A stretch of DNA of 64,000 nucleotides from Aphrocallistes beatrix (Eukaryota; Porifera; Hexactinellida; Sceptrulophora; Aphrocallistidae). Every line of letters starts with the position of its first letter. Position 1 is the first letter of the stretch. The notes under the pieces were generated by a model. That model saw only the letters and a list, made by a program, of their open reading frames with translations. It was not told the origin of the DNA and did no database searches. The stretch spans positions 1-64,000 of the forward strand of contig OY725492.1 in the NCBI GenBank assembly GCA_963281255.1. Reading direction: 5' to 3'. Below are positions 1 through 60,757 of the stretch, in pieces. Position numbers and translations under genes: made by a program.

Positions 1-3000
1 CACTGTACCCCCCACAGGGACAAGAAAATGCCTTGAATCACTTTCAATTTGACATTGTTTCAAACTGAAAATGCTTACTTTCACTTTGCTCTTACAACGT
101 TTCTTACAGAAAAGGCCTAGTTTCTCCCTTATTTGGGCACATTCTTTCCTCAAAATGTCACTGTACCCCCCCACAGGGACAAGAAAATGCCTTGAATCAC
201 TTTCAATTTGACATTGTTTCAAACTGAAAATGCTTACTTTCACTTTGCTCTTACAACGTTTCTTACAGAAAAGGCCTAGTTTCTCCCTTATTTGGGCACA
301 TTCTTTCCTCAAAATGTCACTGTACCCCCCCACAGGGACAAGAAAATGCCTTGAATCACTTTCAATTTGACATTGTTTCAAACTGAAAATGCTTACTTTC
401 ACTTTGCTCTTACAACGTTTCTTACAGAAAAGGCCTAGTTTCTCCCTTATTTGGGCACATTCTTTCCTCAAAATGTCACTGTACCCCCCCACAGGGACAA
501 GAAAATGCCTTGAATCACTTTCAATTTGACATTGTTTCAAACTGAAAATGCTTACTTTCACTTTGCTCTTACAACGTTTCTTACAGAAAAGGCCTAGTTT
601 CTCCCTTATTTGGGCACATTCTTTCCTCAAAATGTCACTGTACCCCCCCACAGGGACAAGAAAATGCCTTGAATCACTTTCAATTTGACATTGTTTCAAA
701 CTGAAAATGCTTACTTTCACTTTGCTCTTACAACGTTTCTTACAGAAAAGGCCTAGTTTCTCCCTTATTTGGGCACATTCTTTCCTCAAAATGTCACTGT
801 ACCCCCCCACAGGGACAAGAAAATGCCTTGAATCACTTTCAATTTGACATTGTTTCAAACTGAAAATGCTTACTTTCACTTTGCTCTTACAACGTTTCTT
901 ACAGAAAAGGCCTAGTTTCTCCCTTATTTGGGCACATTCTTTCCTCAAAATGTCACTGTACCCCCCCACAGGGACAAGAAAATGCCTTGAATCACTTTCA
1001 ATTTGACATTGTTTCAAACTGAAAATGCTTACTTTCACTTTGCTCTTACAACGTTTCTTACAGAAAAGGCCTAGTTTCTCCCTTATTTGGGCACATTCTT
1101 TCCTCAAAATGTCACTGTACCCCCCCACAGGGACAAGAAAATGCCTTGAATCACTTTCAATTTGACATTGTTTCAAACTGAAAATGCTTACTTTCACTTT
1201 GCTCTTACAACGTTTCTTACAGAAAAGGCCTAGTTTCTCCCTTATTTGGGCACATTCTTTCCTCAAAATGTCACTGTACCCCCCCACAGGGACAAGAAAA
1301 TGCCTTGAATCACTTTCAATTTGACATTGTTTCAAACTGAAAATGCTTACTTTCACTTTGCTCTTACAACGTTTCTTACAGAAAAGGCCTAGTTTCTCCC
1401 TTATTTGGGCACATTCTTTCCTCAAAATGTCACTGTACCCCCCCACAGGGACAAGAAAATGCCTTGAATCACTTTCAATTTGACATTGTTTCAAACTGAA
1501 AATGCTTACTTTCACTTTGCTCTTACAACGTTTCTTACAGAAAAGGCCTAGTTTCTCCCTTATTTGGGCACATTCTTTCCTCAAAATGTCACTGTACCCC
1601 CCCACAGGGACAAGAAAATGCCTTGAATCACTTTCAATTTGACATTGTTTCAAACTGAAAATGCTTACTTTCACTTTGCTCTTACAACGTTTCTTACAGA
1701 AAAGGCCTAGTTTCTCCCTTATTTGGGCACATTCTTTCCTCAAAATGTCACTGTACCCCCCCACAGGGACAAGAAAATGCCTTGAATCACTTTCAATTTG
1801 ACATTGTTTCAAACTGAAAATGCTTACTTTCACTTTGCTCTTACAACGTTTCTTACAGAAAAGGCCTAGTTTCTCCCTTATTTGGGCACATTCTTTCCTC
1901 AAAATGTCACTGTACCCCCCCACAGGGACAAGAAAATGCCTTGAATCACTTTCAATTTGACATTGTTTCAAACTGAAAATGCTTACTTTCACTTTGCTCT
2001 TACAACGTTTCTTACAGAAAAGGCCTAGTTTCTCCCTTATTTGGGCACATTCTTTCCTCAAAATGTCACTGTACCCCCCCACAGGGACAAGAAAATGCCT
2101 TGAATCACTTTCAATTTGACATTGTTTCAAACTGAAAATGCTTACTTTCACTTTGCTCTTACAACGTTTCTTACAGAAAAGGCCTAGTTTCTCCCTTATT
2201 TGGGCACATTCTTTCCTCAAAATGTCACTGTACCCCCCCACAGGGACAAGAAAATGCCTTGAATCACTTTCAATTTGACATTGTTTCAAACTGAAAATGC
2301 TTACTTTCACTTTGCTCTTACAACGTTTCTTACAGAAAAGGCCTAGTTTCTCCCTTATTTGGGCACATTCTTTCCTCAAAATGTCACTGTACCCCCCCAC
2401 AGGGACAAGAAAATGCCTTGAATCACTTTCAATTTGACATTGTTTCAAACTGAAAATGCTTACTTTCACTTTGCTCTTACAACGTTTCTTACAGAAAAGG
2501 CCTAGTTTCTCCCTTATTTGGGCACATTCTTTCCTCAAAATGTCACTGTACCCCCCCACAGGGACAAGAAAATGCCTTGAATCACTTTCAATTTGACATT
2601 GTTTCAAACTGAAAATGCTTACTTTCACTTTGCTCTTACAACGTTTCTTACAGAAAAGGCCTAGTTTCTCCCTTATTTGGGCACATTCTTTCCTCAAAAT
2701 GTCACTGTACCCCCCCACAGGGACAAGAAAATGCCTTGAATCACTTTCAATTTGACATTGTTTCAAACTGAAAATGCTTACTTTCACTTTGCTCTTACAA
2801 CGTTTCTTACAGAAAAGGCCTAGTTTCTCCCTTATTTGGGCACATTCTTTCCTCAAAATGTCACTGTACCCCCCCACAGGGACAAGAAAATGCCTTGAAT
2901 CACTTTCAATTTGACATTGTTTCAAACTGAAAATGCTTACTTTCACTTTGCTCTTACAACGTTTCTTACAGAAAAGGCCTAGTTTCTCCCTTATTTGGGC

Positions 3001-6000
3001 ACATTCTTTCCTCAAAATGTCACTGTACCCCCCCACAGGGACAAGAAAATGCCTTGAATCACTTTCAATTTGACATTGTTTCAAACTGAAAATGCTTACT
3101 TTCACTTTGCTCTTACAACGTTTCTTACAGAAAAGGCCTAGTTTCTCCCTTATTTGGGCACATTCTTTCCTCAAAATGTCACTGTACCCCCCCACAGGGA
3201 CAAGAAAATGCCTTGAATCACTTTCAATTTGACATTGTTTCAAACTGAAAATGCTTACTTTCACTTTGCTCTTACAACGTTTCTTACAGAAAAGGCCTAG
3301 TTTCTCCCTTATTTGGGCACATTCTTTCCTCAAAATGTCACTGTACCCCCCCACAGGGACAAGAAAATGCCTTGAATCACTTTCAATTTGACATTGTTTC
3401 AAACTGAAAATGCTTACTTTCACTTTGCTCTTACAACGTTTCTTACAGAAAAGGCCTAGTTTCTCCCTTATTTGGGCACATTCTTTCCTCAAAATGTCAC
3501 TGTACCCCCCCACAGGGACAAGAAAATGCCTTGAATCACTTTCAATTTGACATTGTTTCAAACTGAAAATGCTTACTTTCACTTTGCTCTTACAACGTTT
3601 CTTACAGAAAAGGCCTAGTTTCTCCCTTATTTGGGCACATTCTTTCCTCAAAATGTCACTGTACCCCCCCACAGGGACAAGAAAATGCCTTGAATCACTT
3701 TCAATTTGACATTGTTTCAAACTGAAAATGCTTACTTTCACTTTGCTCTTACAACGTTTCTTACAGAAAAGGCCTAGTTTCTCCCTTATTTGGGCACATT
3801 CTTTCCTCAAAATGTCACTGTACCCCCCCACAGGGACAAGAAAATGCCTTGAATCACTTTCAATTTGACATTGTTTCAAACTGAAAATGCTTACTTTCAC
3901 TTTGCTCTTACAACGTTTCTTACAGAAAAGGCCTAGTTTCTCCCTTATTTGGGCACATTCTTTCCTCAAAATGTCACTGTACCCCCCCACAGGGACAAGA
4001 AAATGCCTTGAATCACTTTCAATTTGACATTGTTTCAAACTGAAAATGCTTACTTTCACTTTGCTCTTACAACGTTTCTTACAGAAAAGGCCTAGTTTCT
4101 CCCTTATTTGGGCACATTCTTTCCTCAAAATGTCACTGTACCCCCCCACAGGGACAAGAAAATGCCTTGAATCACTTTCAATTTGACATTGTTTCAAACT
4201 GAAAATGCTTACTTTCACTTTGCTCTTACAACGTTTCTTACAGAAAAGGCCTAGTTTCTCCCTTATTTGGGCACATTCTTTCCTCAAAATGTCACTGTAC
4301 CCCCCCACAGGGACAAGAAAATGCCTTGAATCACTTTCAATTTGACATTGTTTCAAACTGAAAATGCTTACTTTCACTTTGCTCTTACAACGTTTCTTAC
4401 AGAAAAGGCCTAGTTTCTCCCTTATTTGGGCACATTCTTTCCTCAAAATGTCACTGTACCCCCCCACAGGGACAAGAAAATGCCTTGAATCACTTTCAAT
4501 TTGACATTGTTTCAAACTGAAAATGCTTACTTTCACTTTGCTCTTACAACGTTTCTTACAGAAAAGGCCTAGTTTCTCCCTTATTTGGGCACATTCTTTC
4601 CTCAAAATGTCACTGTACCCCCCCACAGGGACAAGAAAATGCCTTGAATCACTTTCAATTTGACATTGTTTCAAACTGAAAATGCTTACTTTCACTTTGC
4701 TCTTACAACGTTTCTTACAGAAAAGGCCTAGTTTCTCCCTTATTTGGGCACATTCTTTCCTCAAAATGTCACTGTACCCCCCCACAGGGACAAGAAAATG
4801 CCTTGAATCACTTTCAATTTGACATTGTTTCAAACTGAAAATGCTTACTTTCACTTTGCTCTTACAACGTTTCTTACAGAAAAGGCCTAGTTTCTCCCTT
4901 ATTTGGGCACATTCTTTCCTCAAAATGTCACTGTACCCCCCCACAGGGACAAGAAAATGCCTTGAATCACTTTCAATTTGACATTGTTTCAAACTGAAAA
5001 TGCTTACTTTCACTTTGCTCTTACAACGTTTCTTACAGAAAAGGCCTAGTTTCTCCCTTATTTGGGCGCATTCTTTCCTCAAAATGTCACTGTACCCCCC
5101 CACAGGGACAAGAAAATGCCTTGAATCACTTTCAATTTGACATTGTTTCAAACTGAAAATGCTTACTTTCACTTTGCTCTTACAACGTTTCTTACAGAAA
5201 AGGCCTAGTTTCTCCCTTATTTGGGCACATTCTTTCCTCAAAATGTCACTGTACCCCCCCACAGGGACAAGAAAATGCCTTGAATCACTTTCAATTTGAC
5301 ATTGTTTCAAACTGAAAATGCTTACTTTCACTTTGCTCTTACAACGTTTCTTACAGAAAAGGCCTAGTTTCTCCCTTATTTGGGCACATTCTTTCCTCAA
5401 AATGTCACTGTACCCCCCCACAGGGACAAGAAAATGCCTTGAATCACTTTCAATTTGACATTGTTTCAAACTGAAAATGCTTACTTTCACTTTGCTCTTA
5501 CAACGTTTCTTACAGAAAAGGCCTAGTTTCTCCCTTATTTGGGCACATTCTTTCCTCAAAATGTCACTGTACCCCCCCACAGGGACAAGAAAATGCCTTG
5601 AATCACTTTCAATTTGACATTGTTTCAAACTGAAAATGCTTACTTTCACTTTGCTCTTACAACGTTTCTTACAGAAAAGGCCTAGTTTCTCCCTTATTTG
5701 GGCACATTCTTTCCTCAAAATGTCACTGTACCCCCCCACAGGGACAAGAAAATGCCTTGAATCACTTTCAATTTGACATTGTTTCAAACTGAAAATGCTT
5801 ACTTTCACTTTGCTCTTACAACGTTTCTTACAGAAAAGGCCTAGTTTCTCCCTTATTTGGGCACATTCTTTCCTCAAAATGTCACTGTACCCCCCCACAG
5901 GGACAAGAAAATGCCTTGAATCACTTTCAATTTGACATTGTTTCAAACTGAAAATGCTTACTTTCACTTTGCTCTTACAACGTTTCTTACAGAAAAGGCC

Positions 6001-6663
6001 TAGTTTCTCCCTTATTTGGGCACATTCTTTCCTCAAAATGTCACTGTACCCCCCCACAGGGACAAGAAAATGCCTTGAATCACTTTCAATTTGACATTGT
6101 TTCAAACTGAAAATGCTTACTTTCACTTTGCTCTTACAACGTTTCTTACAGAAAAGGCCTAGTTTCTCCCTTATTTGGGCACATTCTTTCCTCAAAATGT
6201 CACTGTACCCCCCCACAGGGACAAGAAAATGCCTTGAATCACTTTCAATTTGACATTGTTTCAAACTGAAAATGCTTACTTTCACTTTGCTCTTACAACG
6301 TTTCTTACAGAAAAGGCCTAGTTTCTCCCTTATTTGGGCACATTCTTTCCTCAAAATGTCACTGTACCCCCCCACAGGGACAAGAAAATGCCTTGAATCA
6401 CTTTCAATTTGACATTGTTTCAAACTGAAAATGCTTACTTTCACTTTGCTCTTACAACGTTTCTTACAGAAAAGGCCTAGTTTCTCCCTTATTTGGGCAC
6501 ATTCTTTCCTCAAAATGTCACTGTACCCCCCCACAGGGACAAGAAAATGCCTTGAATCACTTTCAATTTGACATTGTTTCAAACTGAAAATGCTTACTTT
6601 CACTTTGCTCTTACAACGTTTCTTACAGAAAAGGCCTAGTTTCTCCCTTATTTGGGCACATTC
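1..6663. repeat. 159-bp tandem satellite, about 42 copies
   Basis: A 159-bp unit runs head-to-tail from the first base to about 6663 and then breaks off into unique sequence. The first visible unit is 158 bp because its C-run has six C instead of seven. Copies are virtually identical; the one clear substitution I noticed is A to G at 5068. No long ORF crosses the units. Each unit contains the string TTTCTTACAG, which resembles a 3' splice site, and a perfect CArG box CCTTATTTGG (first copy at 127-136). The array continues off the left edge, so its true length is unknown. The homogeneity points to recent amplification or ongoing homogenisation. Collapse or expansion in the assembly is possible. 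Confidence 0.97.
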
Positions 6664-10940: not shown

Positions 10941-11644
10941 TCTCAAATGGATTAATCTGTCCCAGTTAATCATTGTCCAGCTATCTTGTTTTTCTTCTCA
11001 TTTATTCTAAAAATGTATCCCAAAAAAGTGTCTTCACATTTTCACACTACACCGAAAAGCAAACAATGATTATTTATATATTATTCATTTACTCTTTTAC
11101 AATAACTAATAAATACTTATTCATAGTTAGACAGGGCGATACCATGCACATGATTTAATATCAGAGGTATATAAATAGAGTACACATATATGAATGACTA
11201 ATAGCAATGAGACTTGTGGAAGGTATTATGTTTATTTTAAAGTCTTCTCCAAGTTCATTGTTTTCATCACATATACGTACGAGTCGGTACGACGTACGTA
11301 TATGTGTACCATATATACCAGAAGCCGTAATTTAAAATTATCCATTGCGTTCCGTTCCTCTTACAGATACAACAAGGTGGGGGAGTCATGTAGCACATTT
11401 TTCTCTGTAGCTGTTAGTAATATAGGGTGTTCATACTTTCTTATATTAATTAAGTTAAAACACTTGACACATTTACAAGTCTGTAAGATCAGTTACAATA
11501 TATATTGATGTGATAGCGACTCAAACACGTTAACACGTCAAGGAAGGGAGATGGGTATGACTATCAGGAGTGCGAATGATAATGTTTATACTTATTGATC
11601 CTTCTTCTTGATAAGGCTTAGGGTAATAAGGTCACATTAGCAAA
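10941..11644. other. 5' flank of the SEFIR-PH kinase gene, with a perfect hairpin
   Basis: AT-rich, no supported ORF. At 11268-11306 lies a perfect 14-bp inverted repeat (CACATATACGTACG and its complement) with an 11-nt loop, about 340 bp upstream of the kinase ATG. It may act in transcription or be the relic of a small element. Confidence 0.6.
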
Positions 11645-13885
11645 ATGGCCACGTCTAATGGCAATGCACAACTACCTTCCATTCCGTCTCCTCAAGGGGT
11701 GACTGAGGTCTCCCTCAAAGCCCTCATCCTCTTCTCTAGAGAGCCAGATATGGACATAGACATATCCCAAATGAAACAAGAAAAGGAGCGCATCGTAGCG
11801 CTGACGAAAACTCTCCGTGAGTCCGAGCGAATTGATGCCGTCTCTGAACCGTTTTACGAGTCCAAAAAGTACAGTGTTGAAGAGTGGCGTAATTGGTACT
11901 ACAAACACCTCAATGACTCCGATATTATTATTGTTATCTGCTCACCAGCTCTCAAACAAATACTATTTGACAAAGACGCAGGAGCAATGTATGAAGAATC
12001 TTGCCAACGCTTTTTGACAACAGATATTTACTCCATACTTGAAACATACCACAAATATGACAAATGCATGTATGTGTTTCTCGAACGAACTATCGAGAAG
12101 GCTCTTCTACCCGGATACATCAACAAACCTGACACGGTTCCTTGTTTCCACGTGCTCCTCGCTTCCAACGCACAAGAACTAGGCAGTAATATCCGTGGTG
12201 AGGCAGTGCAGCCCAAGGTACAGACGATCCAAGACAGAAAGAATACTTTTTCGAGGGTGTCACGTGTTTCTAAACGTAAAGGGGATGCAGTGGACAAGCA
12301 TTCGGCAGGCGGTGCTAAATCCGATTACGTGAAGGAAGGCTGGCTGATACTCTGCACTAGCCAGTCTCTGATACGCCAGCAACTGTACTGCCGCCTCTCC
12401 TACAAATCTCTTTCTTTCTACCTCTCTCCGGACTCGAAAGAGCTGGTTTTTGAGATCACTCTGGCTTCCATTTTAACGATCATGCCACATGGAGCTGTAG
12501 GCTTGTACGGATCTCCTAGTCTTTCGCCTCCCCCCTGCTTGCTCCTGACCACGAATGCAGGGATTGAGTATCACATCGGTCTGGACATCAAGACAAAGGA
12601 GGAGCTTGTACACTTCTCTTCCTACCCTGCGAAACCCGGAGACATCTTCAATCTGTACGCGTTAACAGAGAAGGACTGGCCACAGTTCGGGATTGGACTT
12701 GCTTCGATGGTGGAATGGGAAAACGAGATCCATGCGCTGATCATGCCCTTTACACAAGAGGCGGATCAAGAATCTCCCGTCCCGGAACCTAGACTACCGA
12801 AAGGTGCTAAGCAAGGTCCTGCTCCTATCCCCGTCCTCTCTGACAAAGCCGAATTCATCGCTTTCAGACCCAACAGGAAGCAGAGGTTTGGTGCTGCGCA
12901 TAAGCAGCAAATGCGTGGCTCGTTTCGCGTTCCCAAGTCGGGTACTGAGGCCAGTGTCAAGACAGAGACGCTCGATATCAGTCTCTTCTACCAAATTTTC
13001 CACAAGGAGATACTGGGCAGCGGTCAGTTCGGAACTGTGTTTGGAGGCGCCAACAGGAAGACCGGGTCGCTAGTGGCAGTGAAAGCTATCGAGAAGAGTC
13101 AGTTTCCGATTAACGAGAAACAGGCGCTAATGAACGAAGTTCTCTTCTTGCAGGGAATCAGCCACCCGGGCATTGTCGTGTTGGAGAAAGTCTTCGAGAA
13201 CTGGAAGATGATATTCGTGGTGATGGAGCGTCTAGCTGGAGATATGCTCGAGTTGATACTGACGCAGCCGAGTGGGAGATTGGAAGAGATTAGCACCAAG
13301 ACGATAATCTATCAAATCCTGATAGCCCTGCGCTACCTGCACAAGCACGACGCCGTGCACTGCGATCTCAAGCCGGAGAACGTGCTGCTGGTTAGCAAGG
13401 AGGCGCCCTACCGGATCAAGCTCTGCGACTTTGGGTATGCCCGAATGATCAACACGGAGCAATTCCGCCGTTCGCTCGTCGGGACTCCAGCCTATGTGGC
13501 GCCCGAAGTTCTGGACAGCAGCGGCTACAACAGAGCTCTGGACATGTGGTCTACCGGCGTAATTACCTACGTCAGCTTAAGTGGGACTTTCCCTTTCAAC
13601 GAAGATGAAGATATCAAAACCCAAGTCAGCAACCAGGAGTTTATGTTCCCATCTCACCCTTGGAAAATGATTTCTAAGCAAGCCTTAGACTTTATCAACC
13701 GCCTGATGGAGGTGAGCATCCGACAGAGATACAACGTTAGTAGGGCCCTGCAGCATCCTTGGTTCAGTGACAAGAACATGTGGCTGCAATTAAAGCAGAT
13801 CGAGTCTCGCGCTGGCTCCCCCTACCTAACATCTGAGAAGCAAGACAAAGAATTCCACGCCATTCCTGAGAACCGGGCCATATGA
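11645..13885 (+). CDS. SEFIR/TIR-like - PH - protein kinase D-type kinase
   Basis: A single-exon 746-residue protein; ATG in CAAAATGG. Residues about 24-172 look like a SEFIR domain: a first strand KALILFS (25-31), a WRNWYYKHLNDSD segment, then IIIVICSP (94-101). Residues about 228-370 are a PH domain matching the PKD PH (YVKEGWL start, EWENEIHALIMPF end). Residues about 450-706 are a kinase with the PKD signature: GSGQFG 458-463, K480, HCDLKPEN 572-579 with catalytic D574, DFG 595-597, FRRS-VGTPAY, and the GTFPFNEDEDI loop. PKD family members normally have two C1 domains N-terminal to the PH; none are present. The second activation-loop serine (S610) is kept but the first is Gln (Q606). SEFIR domains assemble IL-17 receptor/Act1 complexes, so I infer a kinase recruited by homotypic SEFIR contacts. 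TIR is the alternative reading of the N-terminus. Confidence 0.88.
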   Translation: MATSNGNAQLPSIPSPQGVTEVSLKALILFSREPDMDIDISQMKQEKERIVALTKTLRESERIDAVSEPFYESKKYSVEEWRNWYYKHLNDSDIIIVICSPALKQILFDKDAGAMYEESCQRFLTTDIYSILETYHKYDKCMYVFLERTIEKALLPGYINKPDTVPCFHVLLASNAQELGSNIRGEAVQPKVQTIQDRKNTFSRVSRVSKRKGDAVDKHSAGGAKSDYVKEGWLILCTSQSLIRQQLYCRLSYKSLSFYLSPDSKELVFEITLASILTIMPHGAVGLYGSPSLSPPPCLLLTTNAGIEYHIGLDIKTKEELVHFSSYPAKPGDIFNLYALTEKDWPQFGIGLASMVEWENEIHALIMPFTQEADQESPVPEPRLPKGAKQGPAPIPVLSDKAEFIAFRPNRKQRFGAAHKQQMRGSFRVPKSGTEASVKTETLDISLFYQIFHKEILGSGQFGTVFGGANRKTGSLVAVKAIEKSQFPINEKQALMNEVLFLQGISHPGIVVLEKVFENWKMIFVVMERLAGDMLELILTQPSGRLEEISTKTIIYQILIALRYLHKHDAVHCDLKPENVLLVSKEAPYRIKLCDFGYARMINTEQFRRSLVGTPAYVAPEVLDSSGYNRALDMWSTGVITYVSLSGTFPFNEDEDIKTQVSNQEFMFPSHPWKMISKQALDFINRLMEVSIRQRYNVSRALQHPWFSDKNMWLQLKQIESRAGSPYLTSEKQDKEFHAIPENRAI

Positions 13886-15315
13886 CGCAGCGGCTGCGAT
13901 TATTGATATTTTAGCTTTAGGATGTGTGAGTGCTGCTTCCTTTTTAGGGTGAGTGTGTTGTGTATGTATATTTGTGCTCTTTCAACGATGCAGGTTTCTT
14001 TCTAAATGTATTACTAATAGCTCGGTTAGAGCCTTAAAATAAGCTTTGTCGATACGTAGGTTTCCCCGACTGAAGCGATAACTGATCATTTACTGCCAAT
14101 CATCTCTTTTGCAAATGAGTGTGAAATCCATGACATTCTCTGCATGAGACGCTCAAGACTAAGATTCTTTAATTAGTCAATCAATTAAATTCTCAAATCG
14201 TAATGTTAATCGAATTCTTACAATTTCGCATATTTCAGAGTACAATCATGCATACTAATAGACCACCTTAATTATATTCAAATACCATTTCCAAACATTT
14301 AAACAGTTGAAGAATGTTATCGTTCCTTCTAATCAACACTACTGTGTTTACTTAGGTTGGGGTCGAGTCTTTATCTTATCAGTCTTGAGATTTTTGATTA
14401 TTTTGTAAAACTAAATTAATTGTATGCATTTTTATACAGAATTTAATTAGCACTTATTTATCCTGACGGATATCCTATTACATCTTTATCTAATTAGCAT
14501 TTCTGTTTTTGCTCTAAGTCTTCCCTACTCTTCGCGTCCACTTGATAGATACGGAGAAAACTTTCCGCGGAGGTTATTCGATCTATTCCTAAGGAATATA
14601 TAATTCACTTTCATAACTCTGCTATTCCTCACTGCTTTTATATGAATAAACAAGATGGCAGCTTTGTTTAGACTATTCTAGGTGCTGGAATTTCAGAATA
14701 GGTATATTCGATACGGATGACCAGCATTGTGCGTATTTTAGCTTGTGTATGTTGCAAATAATTGTGTGGGAAAACGCAGAAGTCAAACAATTCAAAGTCA
14801 TTGGAAGTCTGAATAAGGAATCTTAATTTTTATTGTCTACTGAGCTTCAAATGTTGAATAGATTGATTTCAGATTTCGAGGTGAGTTATAATATGTGGGA
14901 TATAAAATGCTTTACCAAACTGAATGTCTCGCGCTCTGCCAGTACACGGAGTGGAAACACTAGAGCGACATGGTCAAGCTTGCACAGCAGAATTACCAGT
15001 CAGTTACTCGGTGAGAACTAATCAATTTATATGCATTTCCATATGCTATCATGTTAACCCGATACGCTACTAGTATATATGCCTGTACTGGTACTTTTTC
15101 ACATGTGCTAATATTATAACTACACTGCCATACACACTGATTCTTATCCTCCTAGCTCGAACTGAGGACACAGACATATTTATACTGGAAGTTGCTGAAG
15201 TATGGAATTGAATAAATGATTGTTATACTAAACTGACTTTCAAATAAAGTTAGTTTTTATTTTGTTCAGTTCTTTGTTACTCTTCAATAGCTCTCACTTT
15301 CCACCGGCACCAAGC
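13886..15315. other. gap between kinase and Groucho genes
   Basis: AT-rich; it holds the kinase 3' UTR and the upstream region of Groucho. No convincing ORF. An acceptor-like CTTCAATAG ends near 15290, just before the Groucho ATG, so a 5' non-coding Groucho exon may lie here. Confidence 0.4.
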
Positions 15316-18091
15316 ATGAAGCCAGTGAACGGAACACCGCACCCTGCGGGATTGAGCCTAATGTCGCCAATGGCTTTCCCCATACATACGTCCCAATTCC
15401 AGCAGACTCACGCCCCGGTCATCCAACCCTCCCTGCCCCCACAGTCTCTCACGCCTTCTTTCCCCTCGCACCAGCACACCGCACCCAGCAACAAGCCGGG
15501 AATCACGGAGTCGCTCGACAAAATTCGCGATCACTTCAGTCAGCTTGAGTCCCAGAACTTGCAGGTGCGGGCTGACTGCGACCGCATCCAGGCGGAGAAG
15601 GGGGAGCTCCAGAAGCAGCTGGTCATGTACTACGAGATGTGCTACGGCCTGAACATGGAAGTGCAGAAGACGAACGAGATCAACAAGAGACTGATCAACC
15701 TCGTCACGCAGTACCTGCCTCATTTCCCGCAGGAGATGCAGGCACACGTCATTGCCGGATTGGAGAAAGCAAAGCAAGTAAGAATTTGTTTCAAATTCCT
15801 GACACTTACCATTATTACCTGCCTATGCAGGAGTAAAAATCTGACACCCGTTTAAATATTATCATGCATGCAAACACGTAGCACTATTAAGCTAGCACCA
15901 TTTATAATGCATACTCAATTATTTAATCCAATTCCGCAATTTGAATAAGTAAGTGAGATGAAAATATTACAGTCCAGATTAACCATCATTCGATTAGCAT
16001 TCTCTATTCTAAACTCTGCTCGTTTACTCAATTAACTACCTCAAATAAAATCTACAAATTAGCTCAAAGCTGATTAGATCGAGATCAGAGGGAGATAATT
16101 TGCTGATTAACCTACTCGCTCTCTCCCTTTCACATGTGTGGGTGGATTTCTATTAGCGACTGACTTACATGTAGTGCAAGCGGCATATCTTAGCGGTGGC
16201 CATCTGATCTGGTGCAGATGAAGTGGTCACTGACGTTACAAACGTCGGAATTGCATTCCGAGTTCTAATTCACACAAGCTACGCATGGGATCGCTTCGAG
16301 ACGGTGCTGTATCTATCATAGTGGTTTCAAAGTTGCATGTTTTCACTAAATCATGTTAATATAATCATATTCACTTAGGTCAGCGTTTCCGAGCTGAGTG
16401 CACTACTGGGACAACAGATGGCACAGGCGCAAGGCACTCCCCTCTTGCCCCCCAGCATCCAGTCCATCCGGTTCCCGCCCCAGAGTCTCATCACCACGCC
16501 CACACTCAGCCTCAGCTCCACAACACACGCCGGCATGATGCCACTCATCCCCCCGCCCAACCTCCAGCCGCTGCCGAGCCCGCTCATGCCGCCGATCCCC
16601 ATCAAGCAGGAGGTCATGGACACCAAGAACGCCAGCCCCACGCGCTCCTCACACCCCCGGCACAAGAGTCCACCCGACACCTCGCGATCTCTCCAGCACG
16701 TGAGCAGCAAGGCGAAGCGGGCGCGAGACGAGCTTTCTCCGCACGAGCACAGCTCCGACGAGGAGAAGAGCGAGACAGAGCTGGTAGTCGACGACGACGA
16801 CGAGAGTCATCCCTCTCCGAACAAAAAAATAGACATTCCGTCCGGCAGCAAACCCTTCCAGCCTCCCTCCAATCCGCCCAAGCTCTTGCCCCCCAAAGCG
16901 AACACCTCGCATCCCTTCGCTCCTCTTGAGGGGCTAGCCTCCCCACCCTCCAAGTTAGAAATGAATCTGCCTTTTAACATCCAATCGGAGTCCCCGCACA
17001 ACGGGAGTCTCTACCCGTACACTCCCGCCACGGGACAGGTGGAGAGACCGCCGCCCAACCGACCGTCCGCATTCACTCAGTCCCAGAGGGGCCGGAACCC
17101 TCCCGCCGCCCTCCTCTCCGGCAAGCACGGCACTAGTCTAGTCATGCGCAACGGCGCGCCCGTGCCAATGCCGCTGTCGCCTCCGCAAGCCGCCAACTGT
17201 CCGCGGGACATCCGGTTGGTGCGGGAGTTCCCGCATGACGACGTGGTGTGCGCTGTGTGGCTAGAAAACACACTCGCGCGGATATTCGCAGGCGACAAGG
17301 GCACCATCAAGGTCTGGGACACCAACCAGGCCACCAGTCCCGTGCATACGTTCAACTGCGAGGAGGACACCTACCTTCGATTCTGCAAGCTACTCCCCGA
17401 CCGCAAGCACCTGATCGTGGGAGGGGAGCTCTCCAACCTCTGCGTCTTCGACATCACAACCGGGAGCTCACTTCCCATCGTCAGGAAGAGTTCGGGCGGT
17501 CCGGTCTTCTACGCCCTGGCCATCGCCCCGGACGGGAAACATTTCTTCACGTGCGGCAGCGACGGCAAGATCAGCATCTGGGACACACAGACGTTCGCGT
17601 CCTTCAACCAAGTGGAGGGACACGTGGAGGGCGCCAGCAGTATTGACATCTCTCCAGATGGAAACACCTTGTACACGGGCGGGCTGGATCACACCGTCAA
17701 GTGCTGGGACATCCGCCAGCTGAGCAAGGTTAAGGAGTACGACTTCTCCGGCCAGATATTCGCGATGGGCGCGTGCCCCTCCGGCGACTGGGTGGCCGTG
17801 GGGAACGAGAACTCGATGGTGGAGGTGCAGAGCCTGCGGAGTGAGGAGCAGTACCGACTGAATCTCCACTCGCAGTCCATCCTCACGCTCAAGTACGCGC
17901 ACGAAGCGCAGTGGTGTCTGACTGGGGGAAAGGACAGCATGCTCAACTTGTGGCACTCCCCCAAGGGCCAACCTCTGTGCAACCGGCGAGAAAACAGCTC
18001 AGTGCTGTGTAGCGATATTTCGCGCGATGACAAATATATCGTGACAGGATCCGGAGATAAAAAAACTACGTTCTATGAGATTGTGTATTAA
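15316..18091 (+). CDS. Groucho/TLE transcriptional corepressor
   Basis: Two coding exons, 15316-15777 and 16379-18091, joined in phase 0 across a 601-bp intron (CAA|GTAAGA ... TTCACTTAG|GTC), giving about 724 residues, close to vertebrate TLE length. The N-terminal Q domain (about 70-165) is a helical tetramerisation region with the family string MYYEMCYGLN and LEKAKQ|VSVSELSALLGQQ; the intron falls at KQ|V. A Pro-rich segment, a basic/acidic CcN-like region (KAKRARDELSP, SSDEEKSETELVVD) and an SP region follow. The C-terminal about 290 residues are WD40 repeats with IKVWD, ISIWD and VKCWD strands. Groucho is a nuclear corepressor recruited by Hes, Engrailed (eh1) and TCF proteins. It converges on GNL2. 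Confidence 0.96.
15778..16378 (+). other. Groucho intron (601 bp)
   Basis: GT at 15778 and TTCACTTAG ending at 16378. It is ten times longer than most other introns in the window. I see no gene or repeat inside; it may hold regulatory sites. Confidence 0.85.
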
Positions 18092-18511: not shown

Positions 18512-20227
18512 TCAGTTTCGCAGTCTCCTCTGATTTACTAGCAACTCACTAATGGATCTTTCTGAATTGCTAAGATTTCCTGAATTTGCATCCATCGCCT
18601 CTCCAACAGCTGTTTCTTCGTCTGACATTCTCCCACACTCTTCGCTCCTACCTCCCCGCCCGAGTGGAAAATTGCAGGGATCCGAGAAGTCGGGCTTGTA
18701 TCTGATTCCATCCAAGTTCTGAATTACAGAGAATGGCTGGTCCTTACGTTCCTTAGCGGGCACAGATCCGTCCCCCTCCACGATCGAAATATTCACTTCA
18801 ACTCTGTTGTCATTGCTCTGCTCGGAAGCTGGACTGTCCGCGGGCTTCACGAAGTAAGGAATCCTTCCCCTCTGCCAGTCGTTCAGCACCATCTTGGCGA
18901 CGGTCTCCAGGTCGCAGTCGCCTCCCTTCAGCAGCTTCCCAGTGCGCCTGGCCAGCAGCTCCAGGAAGTGCTCGGGGCTCTCCCATACCTCGAGTCCGTA
19001 CAGCTTCTTCAGATAGGCGGGTTGGGTCTTCTCCAGCACTTGCGAGATGTAGAAGGAAGGCGTTTTGAGGTATTCCACACGTGTGACCCCCTTCAGTACC
19101 TTGTCCGTCTCCGTCTCTCCCTCCGGGAACACAATCCCCGGACAGTCGATCAGGTGGATCCGCTTGGTCAGCCGGATGTACTGCCAGACCTTGGTCTCCC
19201 CAGGGATGGGCGCCACCTTGCACACCTTCTTGCCCCTCAGGGTGTTGATGATGGAACTCTTCCCGACGTTCGGGTAGCCGACGAATCCCACGCTGATCTG
19301 CTTCCGGTCCGCGTGCAGCCGTGCGAACTGCCGCAGCAGGTGGATGAGGGAGCCCTTGCCGAACGGGTTGCTCACAGAGGCGTGGAAGGCGAGGGTGGGG
19401 TGCGACTTGGAGAGCGTGGTGATCCAGTGCTTGGATGCCCAGGTCGGCACCAGGTCGCACTTGTTCAGCAGGAAAACGAGGTGCTTGTGCGACTTCTGAG
19501 TTCGCAGGTACGTCTCCACCTGGTGGCACCGGGTCCCTGGAGCGTTCCTGGCGTCCAGCACTTGTATGATGACGTCAGAGGAGTCGATCACCTTGTAGAG
19601 CTCGCTCCAGATGCGGCGGGACTGGCCAGCAGAGAAAATAACGTCCAGTGCCTCCTCTCTGCACTCTTCCGGTTCTGTCACCAGATCTCCGTCGCGCGCC
19701 TGATCGTAGCGGGACTGGGAGGTCTCTGCCTGGGACAGAAGGCCGGAAAGGTCGCCGGAGGGGAGATTGGGCCGCTTCCTCTGAGCTTTGGCGCCGAAGG
19801 TGTGCTCGTAAGACTCGGTGTCGAGGAGGTGCACCCTGGCCTGCTTCCGCTTCTCTTGCAGGAGAGAGACCGGAAGTTTGCTTCGGCGCATCACCACCTT
19901 GTAAGGGTCGCTCGCCACCTGCCCCATCGTCTCCTGGAACTTCTGCAGCGAGCTCTGAGTGATCACACGGGTGTTTCCGAACCACTTCCGGTTCGGCTCC
20001 ACTCGCCCCATTTCCCCGCTTTTGGCGCGTGTTTGGAAGGGCGCCGGCTTCAGGACCTTGCCCTTCTTGTTACGGACGGCCTTCCCTCCGTACTTGTACA
20101 TCTGCAGCCGCTTGATGGTGCTCTTATCCCGCATGCTGGAGGAGGTGCGCGGGCGGTCGGGGTTGGTGCTGCTTAGCGACTTGTTAGGTTTCCGCTCCGT
20201 CTTTGGTTTCACTTTCGTTTTTCCCAT
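18512..20227 (-). CDS. GNL2: nucleolar GTP-binding protein 2 (GNL2/NGP-1/Nog2)
   Basis: Single exon, 571 residues, ATG at 20227. A circularly permuted GTPase of the YlqF/YawG family: the G4 motif NKCD (LLNKCDLVP) comes before the G1 motif GYPNVGKSS and the G3 DCPG, which is diagnostic. The basic N-terminus and NGP1 N-terminal region ([27 protein letters not shown]) match the family. Human GNL2 is longer because of a Lys-rich tail that is short here. In eukaryotes it acts in the nucleolus and nucleoplasm, in 60S pre-ribosome maturation and export. Its 5' end is only about 160 bp from the 3' end of the next minus-strand gene. Confidence 0.95.
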
Positions 20228-37305: not shown

Positions 37306-39669
37306 CTAACCAAAAAACGACATAACAAAGTTCAGGATTTGCATCACAAATCCTTTCAGGGTAGAGTAAATTCCAGACTTGGAGCTGATCTCCTGCTGGA
37401 TGTACTTGTCCTGACTGACGTAGTTCTCAATCACGCTTCTTCGCATCTCCTGCGACCACGCATTCGCCTTTCCTTTCTCGAGTTCGATCTCGCACACCTC
37501 CATCACGAACTGCCTGAACTCGTAGACAGAGTCGTACCTGGTGGCGGAGAGTTTGATGATGGAGACGGCGTTGCCGAGAGGGATGGAGACTTCCCTCGTC
37601 AGAGCGTCCAGGTTCTCCTGCTCCCGCTGTGCGGTGAGAGCTCCCAATTCTTTGACCAACTTCTCCCGGTATTCTGCCACGGGGGCGGAGTCCGGGAAGA
37701 GAGCGAACCGGTCCATGTACGCCCTGCGGAGCCGGTTCTCCTCCAGCTGGAGGAGGGAGAGCAGCTCCTCGCGGAACACCGGCAGCGGGATCTGGTCGGG
37801 GCCCGTCCTCCCAATGAACTCCATCTTGAGTGCGGACACGGCGTCCTGGCACTGGGCCGCTAGCAGCTTCTCGTTCTCCTCTTGCAGCTGCTGCCTCGCA
37901 CCCTCCAGCTCCGTGGACAGCTGGGAGAGGAACTCGGAGTAGCTGCCCTTGTCCAGGGAAGGGTCCACTTGTACCTCTGCGGTCTTTCTCGCCTCCGCTT
38001 CGGCCGTCTCTGCAACTCGCTTCAGCTCGGGAGGAGTCAGCGGATCTTTCGTCTTGAAAGTGGTCGAGGAGCGGAACGCACTCACACCTGCCTGGATGGC
38101 GCTGGCGTACAGTTCCCCGATTCTCTTCAGATTCTCGCGCACAAAGCCTACTGCCACCTCGTCGATCGCGGCCAACAGCTCCCCAGACACGGTCTTAACG
38201 TCCGACACGTCGGAGAGGTGTATCAGGGCGGCCCAGTAGTCCTTGTAGCACTCGCGCTTCACGAACTCGACGAACTCGCGCAGCTCCTCCATGCGCTGCG
38301 GGAGCTCCAGCGCCGCGAGCATCGCCTCCGCGCTGATGGTCCGCTGCTGCCGCTCCTCCACGCAGCGCGCGCGGATGCGCTTCAAGTTGGTCTCCTGCTC
38401 CTTGGCGAACTTGGCCTCCAGCTTCTCTCTCAGGTCTCGCAGCGGCACCGCCAGCAGCTCCGAGTAGCCGAGCAGCAGCTCCTGGAACAGCGCCTCCGTG
38501 CGCGCCAGGGTGCGCACGTGCCAGGCCAGCAGGAGGGAGGTGTTGAGCGGGAGGTTGTGGGACTCCTCCTTGAAGCCCCTCAGCTGCGTGTCGTAGTAGC
38601 GGAGACAGCTCTGCTTGGAGCTGTCCTTCATCTGGTCCAGGAACGCGCGCCATCGTCCCGGCACCTCGGGCAGGGAGCCGTCGTTGGACGCGGACACGAG
38701 CACCCGCAGCAACGTGGCCAGCTCCGGCCCGCGGATCGGACTCCCGTTCTTCATTTTGGGCCGGATGTTCGCGGTTAATCGCAGCTTGAGCTGATCACGC
38801 TCCTCCTTGAAATCGCGAGTGAGGTCCGACTCGTTGGCGAGGGACAGGTCCTGCAGGAGGAGCTTGTCTGCGGTGGGGAGGAAGAGGGTGTGGCAGTGGA
38901 GGTCCGCGAATATCTCGGAGAGACTGAGGTCGAAGTTCTGGTTCTCCTTCATGGAGGAGCCCACCAGTTTGCGCAGCCAGTCGGTGGGGGATTCGCCCGG
39001 CTTTGGAGCTTGCACAAAGTCCTGTACCACCCAGATAAGAGGCGGGAAACTGAGCAGTTCGTGATCGAAGGATTGCTGGTACGCAGCCTTATTGATCTGT
39101 GCCTGCAGCGCGAATAGCCGCGTGCGGCGTGCCAGCAGTTCCAAATACTCCAGATCATCCTGGTTGATGATCTTGACGGAGTTGTAGAGCAGGAAAGAAC
39201 TGAGGAGGGAAGCCACGGCGAAAACCTTCGCATCGTACTGCTCTGAGACGTTCCGGGCGGAAAAGCCCTCTGTGTCCAGGAACACGATGGACACACTTTC
39301 ACCGCCGGCGGTCTTCGCCTCCAAGGGCCGCCCCCACATCCAGATGCCCATAGTCTTCGGGTCCACGTACTTCCCGATCCCGAACCCGCGGCTCTTGCCC
39401 ATCAGCTGATTCATGAGGAAGGACTTCCCGCTGTGGAACGGTCCTACGACGGCCACCACCGCGACCGCCCCCTGCACGCTGTTCAGCAGGTCCACGTTCT
39501 CGTCCAGCAGCTGCAGCCGCCGGTGCTCGAAGTCCGGGCGCACCAGCTGGACCGGTTCGTCCCTCAGGACGGTGGAGGGAGGTGGGACGCCATCCGAGGA
39601 ATTTGGCACCTGGGCACCATGGAGGATGGTTGTAGAGAGTAGCAAAAGAAAGTAAGAGAGGAATTTCAT
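37306..39669 (-). CDS. guanylate-binding-protein (GBP) family GTPase with signal peptide
   Basis: Single exon, 787 residues. Residues 1-19 form a clear signal peptide (KFLSYFLLLLSTTILHG). The large GTPase domain (about 40-310) has P-loop GPFHSGKS (76-83), the G2 segment DPKTMGIWMWG and G3 DTEG (132-135). The GBP-type G4, normally RD, reads WVVQDF, so Arg is Gln. A long helical region (about 330-750) follows, as in GBP middle and effector domains, ending in a hydrophobic or amphipathic tail (LKGFVMQILNFVMSFFG). Cytosolic vertebrate GBPs attack pathogen membranes. Here the signal peptide would put the GTPase in the secretory pathway, or act as an N-terminal membrane anchor. No AATAAA is visible before coiled-coil gene B starts. 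Confidence 0.88.
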   Translation of the reverse strand: MKFLSYFLLLLSTTILHGAQVPNSSDGVPPPSTVLRDEPVQLVRPDFEHRRLQLLDENVDLLNSVQGAVAVVAVVGPFHSGKSFLMNQLMGKSRGFGIGKYVDPKTMGIWMWGRPLEAKTAGGESVSIVFLDTEGFSARNVSEQYDAKVFAVASLLSSFLLYNSVKIINQDDLEYLELLARRTRLFALQAQINKAAYQQSFDHELLSFPPLIWVVQDFVQAPKPGESPTDWLRKLVGSSMKENQNFDLSLSEIFADLHCHTLFLPTADKLLLQDLSLANESDLTRDFKEERDQLKLRLTANIRPKMKNGSPIRGPELATLLRVLVSASNDGSLPEVPGRWRAFLDQMKDSSKQSCLRYYDTQLRGFKEESHNLPLNTSLLLAWHVRTLARTEALFQELLLGYSELLAVPLRDLREKLEAKFAKEQETNLKRIRARCVEERQQRTISAEAMLAALELPQRMEELREFVEFVKRECYKDYWAALIHLSDVSDVKTVSGELLAAIDEVAVGFVRENLKRIGELYASAIQAGVSAFRSSTTFKTKDPLTPPELKRVAETAEAEARKTAEVQVDPSLDKGSYSEFLSQLSTELEGARQQLQEENEKLLAAQCQDAVSALKMEFIGRTGPDQIPLPVFREELLSLLQLEENRLRRAYMDRFALFPDSAPVAEYREKLVKELGALTAQREQENLDALTREVSIPLGNAVSIIKLSATRYDSVYEFRQFVMEVCEIELEKGKANAWSQEMRRSVIENYVSQDKYIQQEISSKSGIYSTLKGFVMQILNFVMSFFG

Positions 39670-42096: not shown

Positions 42097-44217
42097 TCAC
42101 TTCTTGCGTCCGCCTCTCTCCTTCACCAGCAGCTGCACCACGGACTCCTCGGAGAAGTTGTAGTGCGCGAGCGAGTGCGAGTCCTTCAGGAAGACGGTCC
42201 CCAGCTGCAGTTTCTGCTTCCCGATGGGCATGTCTATCTGCGAGGAGATCTTCGCCTTGATCACCGAGACCTGGTCCGTGACCGGAAGCGACACGTTCAG
42301 GATTTGTCCGTTCAAGTGCCACTCGGGTTTCTCCGACATCTGAGGACAGTGCACTCTGAATGCGACCGGCCCCGGGTGCATGCGCAGGTACTCCTCCTCC
42401 GGAAGGAAGCAATCCTCTTCGGTCCGCGCACGTTTGGCGCCCTGGTCCGGCTGCGGCGGGGGGAAGTGCGCGGGCGGGCGCGGCTGCATGAAGGGCTGCG
42501 GCGGAAGGACGGACGGTCCGTACGCGCCGGGGAGGGGGTTTCGCGGGATCATGACTGGGTTCGGAGGTTGCATGGGAAAAGAGGGACGGACTTCTGTCAT
42601 GGGGTGGGGGACAGGGGGAGGGGGTGCAGGCACCGGCGCGGCTTCCACGCTGTGAGGTTGAGGGGGCACCGGTTGCTTCTGAGGAATGGCAGGAGGGCCA
42701 ATCTTGGGCGGTTCCTCTATAATGTGTCTGACAGGAACAGGTGTCTCCTCCTGTCCTCCCCCCTCCTCTCCGGGCTTACTGCCCAGCTGCTCCTCCCCGA
42801 TGGTCTGTCCGATCACAGTCTCTTCCGTCCCGGACCCGAATATGTCCGTCCTGCGCTTGGCCAAGCCCCACAAGCTCTGCGTGATCTGACTCCCCTCGGC
42901 GTACACCTCCGTCTGCCCCTGCGCCTGCTGCTGGAGCAGCTTGCTCTGCGACTCGCGCCACTTCGAGTCCACCAGCAGGTGCTTCACGTGCGAGGTGGCT
43001 TTCTCCGGGGGGATGATCTCGCCCGTGATGGGAGAGGTCAGGAATTTGTCCGCATCAGTATCGGCCAGCGCCGCCTGCGGCCTGGCTTTCGGGTCGTAGT
43101 CGGGTCGGATTATGATATCTCCCTCCTGGACGGGGGGTGCGGTGTTGATGAGGGGTGCAGCGGGTGCGGGCGTGGTCACCTCTTCCTGAGGAGCATCAAG
43201 AGGCTCCACCTCTTGCACCAGCTCGTCCTCCATCTCCACCTCCCTGGGCTCCTCCCCCTCCTCCCTCACGGGGCCGCCGCGCGCACGGGACTCGTGCTTG
43301 GCCTGCGCTACCAGGCGCGCGGTGAGCGTGTGGGGGGTCACGGGGGGCGGGAAGTACCCAGTCTCCTCTTCTGTGAAGTTGATCGTCTCCACCACCACGA
43401 AGTCGTGCCAGTCGATCTGCGCGTACGCCACTCGCTCCCGCTCGCTCTTCTCCTCCTCGCCCTGGCGCTGCCGCTTCTGGTAGGTGTTCCAGTGGAAGCG
43501 CTTCTCCACGCGCTCGGACAGGTTCTCCGCGGAGTAGATGTCGCGCGAGAGAGAGTCGAGGATGTTCTTCGGAGGGATCAGCACGCGCTGGTACTGCTCC
43601 ACCAGCTTGTTGAAGAACGTGAACAGGCAGTGCTGCGGACGCAGGAAATCGAACTGCGAGTTCTTCTGCTCTTTGTCCATCAGTTTGTTCACGAAGGAGC
43701 GCCCGTGCGTGGCAGTGAACAGCGCGGTCAGCTTCACGACGTCGATGTCCAGGGAAGAGATGGAGGGGGGCTCGAAGATGAACTCGAACTCAGGAGGGGG
43801 CTCTTTCGGGACCAGGCTATCGAGCTGTATGGCCTGTGTCGGGGGTCTGGGTACAGGGAGGGCGTGGTGGGGAGTGAGCTGCATCTGAGGAGTGGGAACA
43901 GCTTTCCCCTCCTTGAACTCATTAACGCGATGCCTGTAGTAGTTGTGGTAGGGGTCAGCTGGGTAGAGGAAGTTGAACTTGTTGTTCCCTGTCTCTGAAT
44001 CGCGGACTTTAGCTTCATATGCGGCGCCGTTCCTCGCTACGAACTCCGCAGTGCGGTCGATGATGTTCCGGACCTCTGGGGGCGGATAAATGATTCCGAT
44101 GATGGACTTGGACTTTGGTTGTTCAAACTTCTCGGTCGGTGCATTGCCATTGCCATTGGGTACAAGCAGTGCGGTGGGGGGCGGGTTGGTCGGCGTTTGA
44201 ACTACTACGACAGACAT
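42097..44217 (-). CDS. SF3A1: splicing factor 3A subunit 1
   Basis: Single exon, 706 residues. Two SURP modules lie near residues 40-100 (IIDRTAEFVARNGAAYE; NKFNFLYPADPYHNYY) and 165-220 (KLTALFTATHGRSF; QFDFLRPQHCLFTFFNKL). The PRP21-like middle (NWHDFVVVETI-type strand) is followed by a Pro-rich linker and a C-terminal ubiquitin-like domain (about 630-700) ending ERGGRKK, as in human SF3A1. It is part of U2 snRNP; the UBL binds U1 stem-loop 4. It closes the minus-strand run that begins at 32830. Confidence 0.97.
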   Translation of the reverse strand: MSVVVVQTPTNPPPTALLVPNGNGNAPTEKFEQPKSKSIIGIIYPPPEVRNIIDRTAEFVARNGAAYEAKVRDSETGNNKFNFLYPADPYHNYYRHRVNEFKEGKAVPTPQMQLTPHHALPVPRPPTQAIQLDSLVPKEPPPEFEFIFEPPSISSLDIDVVKLTALFTATHGRSFVNKLMDKEQKNSQFDFLRPQHCLFTFFNKLVEQYQRVLIPPKNILDSLSRDIYSAENLSERVEKRFHWNTYQKRQRQGEEEKSERERVAYAQIDWHDFVVVETINFTEEETGYFPPPVTPHTLTARLVAQAKHESRARGGPVREEGEEPREVEMEDELVQEVEPLDAPQEEVTTPAPAAPLINTAPPVQEGDIIIRPDYDPKARPQAALADTDADKFLTSPITGEIIPPEKATSHVKHLLVDSKWRESQSKLLQQQAQGQTEVYAEGSQITQSLWGLAKRRTDIFGSGTEETVIGQTIGEEQLGSKPGEEGGGQEETPVPVRHIIEEPPKIGPPAIPQKQPVPPQPHSVEAAPVPAPPPPVPHPMTEVRPSFPMQPPNPVMIPRNPLPGAYGPSVLPPQPFMQPRPPAHFPPPQPDQGAKRARTEEDCFLPEEEYLRMHPGPVAFRVHCPQMSEKPEWHLNGQILNVSLPVTDQVSVIKAKISSQIDMPIGKQKLQLGTVFLKDSHSLAHYNFSEESVVQLLVKERGGRKK

Positions 44218-49416: not shown

Positions 49417-50346
49417 ATGGCTTTTAATAAAGAGGAATGGTTTCACTATTATTGTGCTTTGGTAGACCTATCAAGGAATATGAGCGGGGAAGATGTAGGG
49501 GAATTTAAAAAGTGGCTCGTTGACTGCACTGATTACGACATTGGTTTTAGTGAAAATCAAATTTCAGAAATGGATAAATACACAATTCTTCATATTTTCG
49601 AAATTCTAAAGTCTAAAGAGCTGATCAAGCCTTGGTGCAATAACATTCTCACAGATTTCTTGAAAGAACGCAACCTCGAACGTCATTTTAAATATCCGAT
49701 AAATCCGTTCCAGAAAAAGTCAATGGAAACAGAGGAGCCTTCTCCAGTTGAAACCTTCGCAGGAAACCTCTACACACCGCAATATCAATTTTTCCAAGCT
49801 CACTGCGGGGCAGCCAATCCAGAATACAACAAGGGTTTCACACGCTCAGCCCCCACCTCACCACCCAACTACTCCTTCAACCCGATGGAATTCAACATCC
49901 AGAATAATGTATACGCAAACGAGACCACCTATCATGCGGGGGTGAACGGAGGCGCAATGACTATAAACAATCTCACATACAACGGACCGATACAAGTAGC
50001 AATAAAGAGCGGAGAATCCTCGCCAGAGTCCTCACCAGTGGAGGATCCTTGTGAAGTTGACTCTCCAATCACCCCGGACTTCATTGATACGATCGCAAGT
50101 GAAATAGGCCGCGAGTGGAAGACCGTCGCTAGGAAAGGGTTCCAACTAGAAGAGGGGAAAATTGACGAGATAGAGTACGACTCACGACGACTTAAAGATC
50201 AGGTGGTACGCATGATAACCATGTGGACGAAAGTGAGCATTGACTGTAGCCAGTTGGCATTCGCAAAGGCACTCTGCAAATCCAACCTGAGAGGAATAGT
50301 CAAAGGGAATTTTCCACCAACCGTTTCAAGAATGGCGCTGAGCTAA
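49417..50346 (+). CDS. FADD-like adaptor: DED - linker with RHIM-like motif - death domain
   Basis: Single exon, 309 residues. Residues about 7-92 resemble a death-effector domain (YYCALVDLSRNMSGEDVGEFKK; ILHIFEILKSKELI; LTDFLKERNLERHF). Residues about 224-297 are a death domain (IASEIGREWKTVARKGFQL; GKIDEIEYD; QVVRMITMWTKVSIDCSQ). DED followed by DD is the order in FADD, which links death receptors to caspase-8; FADD is about 208 residues and lacks the long linker found here (about 95-220). The linker is rich in N, P and S, and contains TINNLTYNGPIQVAIKSG (182-199), which resembles a RHIM core (I/V-Q-I/V-G with YN upstream), though the Gly is Ala. The gene sits alone in an AT-rich region. 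Confidence 0.75.
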   Translation: MAFNKEEWFHYYCALVDLSRNMSGEDVGEFKKWLVDCTDYDIGFSENQISEMDKYTILHIFEILKSKELIKPWCNNILTDFLKERNLERHFKYPINPFQKKSMETEEPSPVETFAGNLYTPQYQFFQAHCGAANPEYNKGFTRSAPTSPPNYSFNPMEFNIQNNVYANETTYHAGVNGGAMTINNLTYNGPIQVAIKSGESSPESSPVEDPCEVDSPITPDFIDTIASEIGREWKTVARKGFQLEEGKIDEIEYDSRRLKDQVVRMITMWTKVSIDCSQLAFAKALCKSNLRGIVKGNFPPTVSRMALS

Positions 50347-54754: not shown

Positions 54755-55176
54755 ATTATAAAACTAAGAGACGATATCAGTTACATATATAGCTTGTTGC
54801 TCGGTGCAAAGTTTGGTCAGATAGAACTAGCAGCCCACACACCACACTCTTATACATTACGGACGTATTGTCTACAAATTAGAATTCGATAAATACGCAG
54901 GATCAGTTGTCTACGGTCATCGAGGTAAGGAGCTTGTGAGCGATGACGTATATTCCATATGCTCTTGGTTCAATGAGGTAAAGCATTCCGAACTGCAGGC
55001 ATTAGAACTGATTTCACAGCATAATTACGTACGGTATAAATAATTTTTTCATTATGTCTAATGCTGTTTTTAAAATCATCCTTTAAGCTTTTGCAAATAT
55101 TTAAGTACACTAGTTCTGTCCTGAGACCTATTGGCCTCAGGGTTTAGGTATACAGAAGAAAAAGTGGATACAGAAG
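54755..55176. promoter_or_regulatory. bidirectional promoter region
   Basis: 422 bp between divergent starts (54754 minus, 55177 plus). AT-rich; no distinct element recognised. Confidence 0.4.
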
Positions 55177-60520: not shown

Positions 60521-60757
60521 ACCGTAGATTACTCAAGCACTTCAAATCTTGAAGAACCATGCTATTCTACCACATGATATACTCCTATTAATTATTAGGG
60601 TATCGCATATGAATTTCTATGTTAGCATTATTTAAAAAATATAACATTACTGTTAGCTGTCAATTATTCTAATTAGAATGAGTAGCAAGAAAAATACAAA
60701 TGTACAAGCGATAAATACAGTCCCAGTATGCTCGATGTACTTGAAGTGATGATTGGA

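Follow-up and report, generated by a model that had tools for sequence, protein, structure and literature searches.

A single uninterrupted open reading frame (ORF) of 746 codons, lying on the forward strand of the 64-kb window (the whole stretch of DNA that was analysed), encodes a predicted protein whose PH and kinase parts are of the protein kinase D (PKD) type and whose N-terminus is best described, with the profiles available, as SEFIR-like. In this predicted protein, the SEFIR-like domain occupies the place of the ULD and the tandem C1 domains of PKD. The reading that we favour, with slightly better than even confidence, is that of a PKD-type effector kinase which carries a SEFIR-like domain for the ULD and C1 parts and whose recruitment and relief from autoinhibition would come about through SEFIR contacts. 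Activation may thereby depend on immune-type protein contacts rather than on diacylglycerol. The SEFIR-PH-PKD kinase architecture is provisionally regarded as novel. The features of the gene, with the means by which each was delimited, are listed below.

11645..13885, + strand: whole ORF, 746 amino acids, one uninterrupted frame (ORF scan, codon statistics)
11714..12184, + strand: SEFIR-like domain, residues ~24-180; Pfam match at 44-144, core at 77-100 (Pfam, block masking)
12203..12328, + strand: linker of basic character with many Ser residues, as judged by eye, residues ~187-228 (translation)
12326..12760, + strand: PKD-type PH domain, residues ~228-372 (PDB sequence search, PKD1 PH alignment)
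12989..13807, + strand: PKD-type kinase with PKD-like C-terminal extension, residues ~449-721 (Pfam, alignments, codon statistics)
13460..13474, + strand: activation-loop end QFRRS, residues 606-610, with S738 replaced by Q606 and S742 kept as S610 (PKD1 alignment)

PKD-type PH domain, kinase, and regulatory residues

The kinase part gives a Pkinase match at residues 454-707 in the Pfam scan (E 1.9e-66) and aligns without gaps to a provisional human PKD1 sequence, with 168 identities in 289 positions. The catalytic landmarks that were checked, namely the counterparts of K612, D706, DFG, and APE, are all conserved. Among the best 60 of 1903 PDB matches, the closest kinases are CHK2 and CaMK1; the presence of CHK2 is expected for a PKD, as it is the nearest relative of PKD according to the available part of PMC9962925. 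The PH stretch was assigned to no family in the Pfam scan. In the PDB sequence search, it matches just two of 177,635 distinct sequences at E<=10, and both are PKD PH domains, those of PKD3 (2d9z, E 1e-4) and PKD2 (2coa, E 0.0021). Moreover, its alignment to a provisional PKD1 PH sequence scores 116, against 47 for the highest of 500 shuffles. Owing to the PKD1 alignment and these PKD-only matches, the predicted kinase and PH parts are classed as PKD-type. C1 domains gave no Pfam match at E<=10 in the protein, and the C1 Cys/His pattern was not found in it either. Thus, several claims of the sequence-only reading are borne out by these results: a complete PKD kinase, a PKD-type PH domain, and the absence of the C1 pair. 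Its further claim, that SEFIR-like, PH, and kinase parts follow one another in one frame without C1, is confirmed by the domain matches and the intact ORF.

Counterparts of PKD regulatory residues were set by the provisional human PKD1 sequence together with the residue numbers given in the part of PMC9962925 that was available. All 12 numbers fit this sequence, and 11 of these fits are independent, since S742 served as the anchor. Conserved counterparts are found for eight of the 12 (K612, D665, D706, R732, R741, S742, E787, and D788), three are changed (S738 to Q606, N757 to S625, and D791 to T659), and the S910 tail of PKD1 has no counterpart in this protein. The network named for the face-to-face kinase dimer accordingly keeps four of its six residues (R741, S742, E787, and D788), with N757 and D791 changed. 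In the usual view of PKD, S738 is phosphorylated by PKC after C1-driven recruitment to diacylglycerol, and S742 is autophosphorylated next (PMC8005150, as far as available). The joint absence of S738 and C1 with S742 present, a point that extends the sequence-only reading, would fit a kinase that is uncoupled from diacylglycerol and PKC yet autoactivating. However, the loss of S738 may mean little, because the physiological relevance of this serine is called unclear in the available part of PMC9962925.

The SEFIR-like N-terminus

Among 24,736 Pfam models, SEFIR (PF08357) is the only one to match the N-terminus at E<=10. The match scores 16.8 bits in the whole protein (E 0.0088), 19.6 bits in residues 1-228 (E 0.0012), and 20.8 bits in residues 21-185 (E 0.00052), and it spans positions 12-113 of the 150 in the profile. 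None of these forms reaches the Pfam gathering cut-off of 23 bits; for comparison, a provisional human Act1 sequence scores 134.6 bits against the same profile. One reversed and seven shuffled copies served as controls. Their best E-value was 0.041, three of the eight had no match at all, SEFIR appeared in none, and the SEFIR match of the real sequence beats every one of them. Neither residues 1-228 nor residues 21-185 gave a match to a TIR profile of Pfam at E<=10, and the candidate assignment of the N-terminus as a TIR domain proper was rejected for this reason. Of the SEFIR/TIR-like character proposed earlier, SEFIR is the sole profile match, though below 23 bits. The linker adds no family of its own, as SEFIR remains the sole Pfam match in the fragment 1-228.

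Block masking located the origin of the signal. The match is abolished by masking residues 77-88 or 89-100, a core made up of a W-rich helix together with the IIIVICS strand. Masking upstream of the core leaves 20.6 bits (residues 21-40), 15.3 bits (41-52), 13.6 bits (53-64), and 12.7 bits (65-76), and masking downstream of it leaves 17.3 bits (101-112), 19.7 bits (113-124), and 18.3 bits (125-136). The score is spread over residues 41-100, which indicates that the SEFIR signal comes from several separate elements. Of the elements named in the sequence-only reading, the helix and the strand carry the signal, but KALILFS (residues 25-31) adds almost nothing to it. Pairwise comparison counts against the assignment: alignment to a provisional IL-17RA sequence is at chance level (658 of 1000 shuffles attain its score), and alignment to the Act1 sequence is marginal (25 of 1000).

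Structure prediction was carried out with single-sequence AlphaFold2, giving a mean pLDDT of 33.2 for residues 1-382 and 45.9 for residues 21-190. At this low confidence, the longer model alternates strand and helix, and the shorter one has strands in place of the first helix. Foldseek searches with the two models returned no match at E<=0.001. Their non-significant matches, considered for the best 50 of each search, are mixed: one search lists CD38, a flavoprotein, a G-protein, and others, and the other lists many DNPH1 chains, a flavoprotein, and one SARM1 chain. As an assignment, SEFIR is the best profile available for this region, but the match is sub-threshold and the models, with pLDDT of 33 and 46, add no significant fold match.

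The sub-threshold score and the mixed fold matches of the poor models are also what leaves room for the foremost alternative, which sees in the N-terminus some different alpha/beta domain of flavodoxin-like fold, either an outlier of the TIR clan or a lineage-specific domain, with a weak resemblance to SEFIR, and in the whole protein a PKD variant that lacks C1 and is scaffolded by other, non-immune means. We consider this unlikely, though it deserves attention; SEFIR stands alone among the Pfam models, all eight controls do worse, and its score is drawn from several separate blocks. A diverged ULD was considered as well. The ULD-C1a region of the provisional PKD1 sequence scores 26 against the N-terminus, below the shuffle mean of 28.2 and equalled or exceeded by 725 of 1000 shuffles, and this candidate was rejected for want of similarity. 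Additionally, residues 1-228 match no PDB chain at E<=10 (phmmer), in a PDB set that may not include the DKF-1 ULD entry.

Integrity of the reading frame and its surroundings

The ORF runs from an ATG at 11645 to a TGA at 13885 with zero internal stops, and an in-frame stop lies at 11627, 18 bases upstream of the ATG. The context of the start ATG, CAAAATGGCC, is one that we take to be favourable by the Kozak rule. Signals of the ATTAAA/AATAAA kind occur 3' of the ORF at 14184, 14645, 15211, and 15243. The chance of the 228 N-terminal codons staying open, given the local base composition, is P ~4e-6. Codon statistics were trained on 14 ORF stretches elsewhere in the window, and all six frames were scored in blocks of 150 bases. 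Over 11705-13804, the ORF frame ranks first of the six in 13 of 14 blocks, the sole exception being block 12755-12904, where it scores 20.8 against 23.4 for another frame. The two end blocks are part non-coding; here the ORF frame scores -37.1 against a best of -24.2 (11555-11704) and 0.3 against a best of 0.4 (13805-13954).

These data bear on a second alternative, according to which the stretch houses two genes or yields alternative transcripts and no fused protein is made; the SEFIR-like region and the PH-kinase would then be expressed independently, or one of them would be spliced out with an intron. Two observations speak for it. Over residues ~71-170, the ORF frame has little coding signal (-4.8 and 1.0), and GC3 rises along the protein from 0.47 (residues 23-185) through 0.62 (229-372) to 0.69 (448-746); as GC3 in the 14 training stretches spans 0.48-0.87, the N-terminal part sits just under the lowest neighbour. 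On the other hand, all 746 codons, those of the linker included, are free of stops, and in the linker block the ORF frame scores 10.1, with none of the five remaining frames above 2.9. Furthermore, several window genes are long uninterrupted ORFs, so that a single exon of this length is nothing exceptional in the region; for the same reason, the single exon does not on its own indicate a retrocopy. Separate expression is therefore judged improbable. A recent chance fusion or a decaying, functionless copy of a PKD gene appears more improbable still: no relative was confirmed in prokaryotic genome contigs or viral contigs and no second copy occurs within the 64-kb window, but the K612, D706, DFG, and APE counterparts are conserved, no internal stop is present, and the kinase-part GC3 of 0.69 falls within the neighbours' range.

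Several other elements were recorded in the window. A 159-base satellite fills positions 1-6663 (41.9 copies, 99% matches) and shows a strong negative GC skew; one probe taken from it had no exact match in viral contigs, and a second probe had none in prokaryotic genome contigs. Just downstream of the ORF, a Groucho/TLE-like gene extends over 15358-18088 (+), with TLE_N in one ORF and WD40 repeats in the next; given the range of the Groucho/TLE family, this suggests that the DNA comes from an animal. Long uninterrupted ORFs of conserved eukaryotic genes include an NGP1NT/GTPase at 18515-20227 (-), a GBP/atlastin-like gene at 37309-39660 (-), and a P5-type ATPase at 57077-60529 (-). A further long uninterrupted ORF at 42100-44217 (-) is Surp/PRP21-like with a C-terminal ubiquitin-like domain (SF3A1-like), and the region looks intron-poor. 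In the ORF at 53183-54763 (-), an NTQNPLMP-like repeat of eight residues makes up the C-terminal part and lies on a tandem array with a 24-base unit (53272-53518). The one at 61851-63443 (-) shows Ephrin_rec_like repeats, a weak Ig match, and a stretch rich in Thr and Ser, followed by what by eye is a likely membrane span. A death-domain protein (E 2.9e-7) is encoded at 49417-50343 (+), which places a homotypic-interaction domain ~35 kb from the SEFIR-like gene. No Rfam family reaches its cut-off within the window. The notion that the gene is one of several window copies was tried and rejected, as there is no second copy.

Proposed regulation and known systems

In the regulation that we propose for the SEFIR-docked kinase, the PH domain would restrain the resting enzyme, as would face-to-face dimerisation of the kinase. 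The known inactive state of PKD has both features, inhibition by the PH domain (PMC8005150) and, alongside dimerisation of the ULD, a kinase dimer arranged face to face (PMC9962925), in the parts of these papers that were available. For the present protein, such restraint is deduced from the conserved R741, S742, E787, and D788 counterparts, though those of D791 and N757 are changed. The SEFIR-like domain would then dock onto another SEFIR (or TIR) protein in a receptor or adaptor complex. A SEFIR/TIR interaction is named in the title of a paper on IL-17RD that PMC9265605 cites. Docking would replace the dimerising role of the ULD and the recruiting role of the C1 domains, and would lift the inhibition; S610 could subsequently be autophosphorylated without PKC priming. 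The released kinase would phosphorylate PKD-type substrates with Arg at -3, a preference suggested by the conserved D665 counterpart. The interpretation given in the sequence-only reading is partly supported overall; its direct coupling of PKD output to homotypic immune adaptors stands as a hypothesis.

A broader and more tentative proposal, to which we give somewhat less than even credence, is that the whole diacylglycerol-sensing input (ULD, C1 pair, and PKC site) gave way en bloc to a SEFIR docking domain; an assembly of the IL-17R/Act1 or TIR type would then directly free a receptor-proximal PKD from autoinhibition in an early animal lineage. PKD is already active in immune pathways, and this was counted in favour of a SEFIR-docked PKD: in the available parts of the sources, mammalian PKD1 acts in MyD88-dependent TLR signalling as a separate protein (PMC8005150), and DKF-2 acts in worm intestinal immunity (PMC3094335). 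If the SEFIR-like domain does bind receptors or adaptors, the protein would form a direct physical link between SEFIR and PKD signalling. For PKD itself, two points are unsettled in the available parts of PMC6768651 and PMC9962925: the effect of N-terminal dimerisation on activation, be it positive or negative, and the importance of the PKC-phosphorylated serine. A natural PKD-type kinase that appears to lack the ULD, C1, and S738 but retains S742 and four of the six residues named for the kinase dimer would offer a ready test of which parts are essential.

Comparison with sequences and literature gave no precedent within the material covered. The whole protein, used as a single-protein query that reaches close relatives only, produced six pattern matches in prokaryotic genome contigs and two in viral contigs, with no confirmed relative in either; the N-terminus produced two in viral contigs, likewise with no confirmed relative. 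Among the literature matches listed, which come from a collection mostly outside the subscription journals, no description of a SEFIR-PKD architecture was found. No SEFIR-PKD protein occurs in the available parts of PMC6768651, PMC9962925, PMC9815663, PMC6321704, PMC12909245, PMC11797021, PMC8353272, PMC2848548, PMC13142454, PMC3094335, PMC8005150, PMC9265605, PMC7959794, or PMC4172062. In the portions available, PMC9265605 has 'SEFIR' only in a reference title, unlinked to protein kinase D, and the 'protein kinases domain' or 'protein kinase domain' that PMC7959794 mentions beside SEFIR is not protein kinase D. The earlier statement that no described example was known agrees with these listed matches, as far as the sources were available. 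Novelty is called provisional on contig searches that covered prokaryotes and viruses, and the architecture could already exist, without having been commented on, in the proteome of a sponge or another organism.

With PKD1-3 and the nematode kinases DKF-1 and DKF-2, the protein shares the order of a PKD-type PH domain followed by a PKD-type kinase. PKD, however, has a ULD, tandem C1 domains, S738, and the S910 tail, none of which was detected here, where a SEFIR-like N-terminus is found instead. With SEFIR proteins such as Act1/CIKS and the IL-17 receptors, the shared feature is the sub-threshold profile match only. A Trichoplax protein combines SEFIR with a death domain (PMC6321704, in the part available), which shows for an early animal lineage that SEFIR can share a protein with a second signalling domain. 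Unlike the SEFIR proteins, the present one has a complete Ser/Thr kinase, with no death domain matched and no receptor-type membrane part visible by eye. IRAK/Pelle kinases consist of a death domain and a Ser/Thr kinase. The same pairing of death domain and kinase is described for fish IRAK1/4 in the available part of PMC7959794. By the proposal made here, the likeness to IRAK/Pelle would lie in a homotypic-interaction domain placed ahead of a Ser/Thr kinase; the families differ, with a death domain and an IRAK-type kinase there and SEFIR-like, PH, and PKD kinase parts here. The proposed logic would thus resemble that of an IRAK-kind death-domain kinase, in which the SEFIR-like domain does the docking and PKD serves as the engine.
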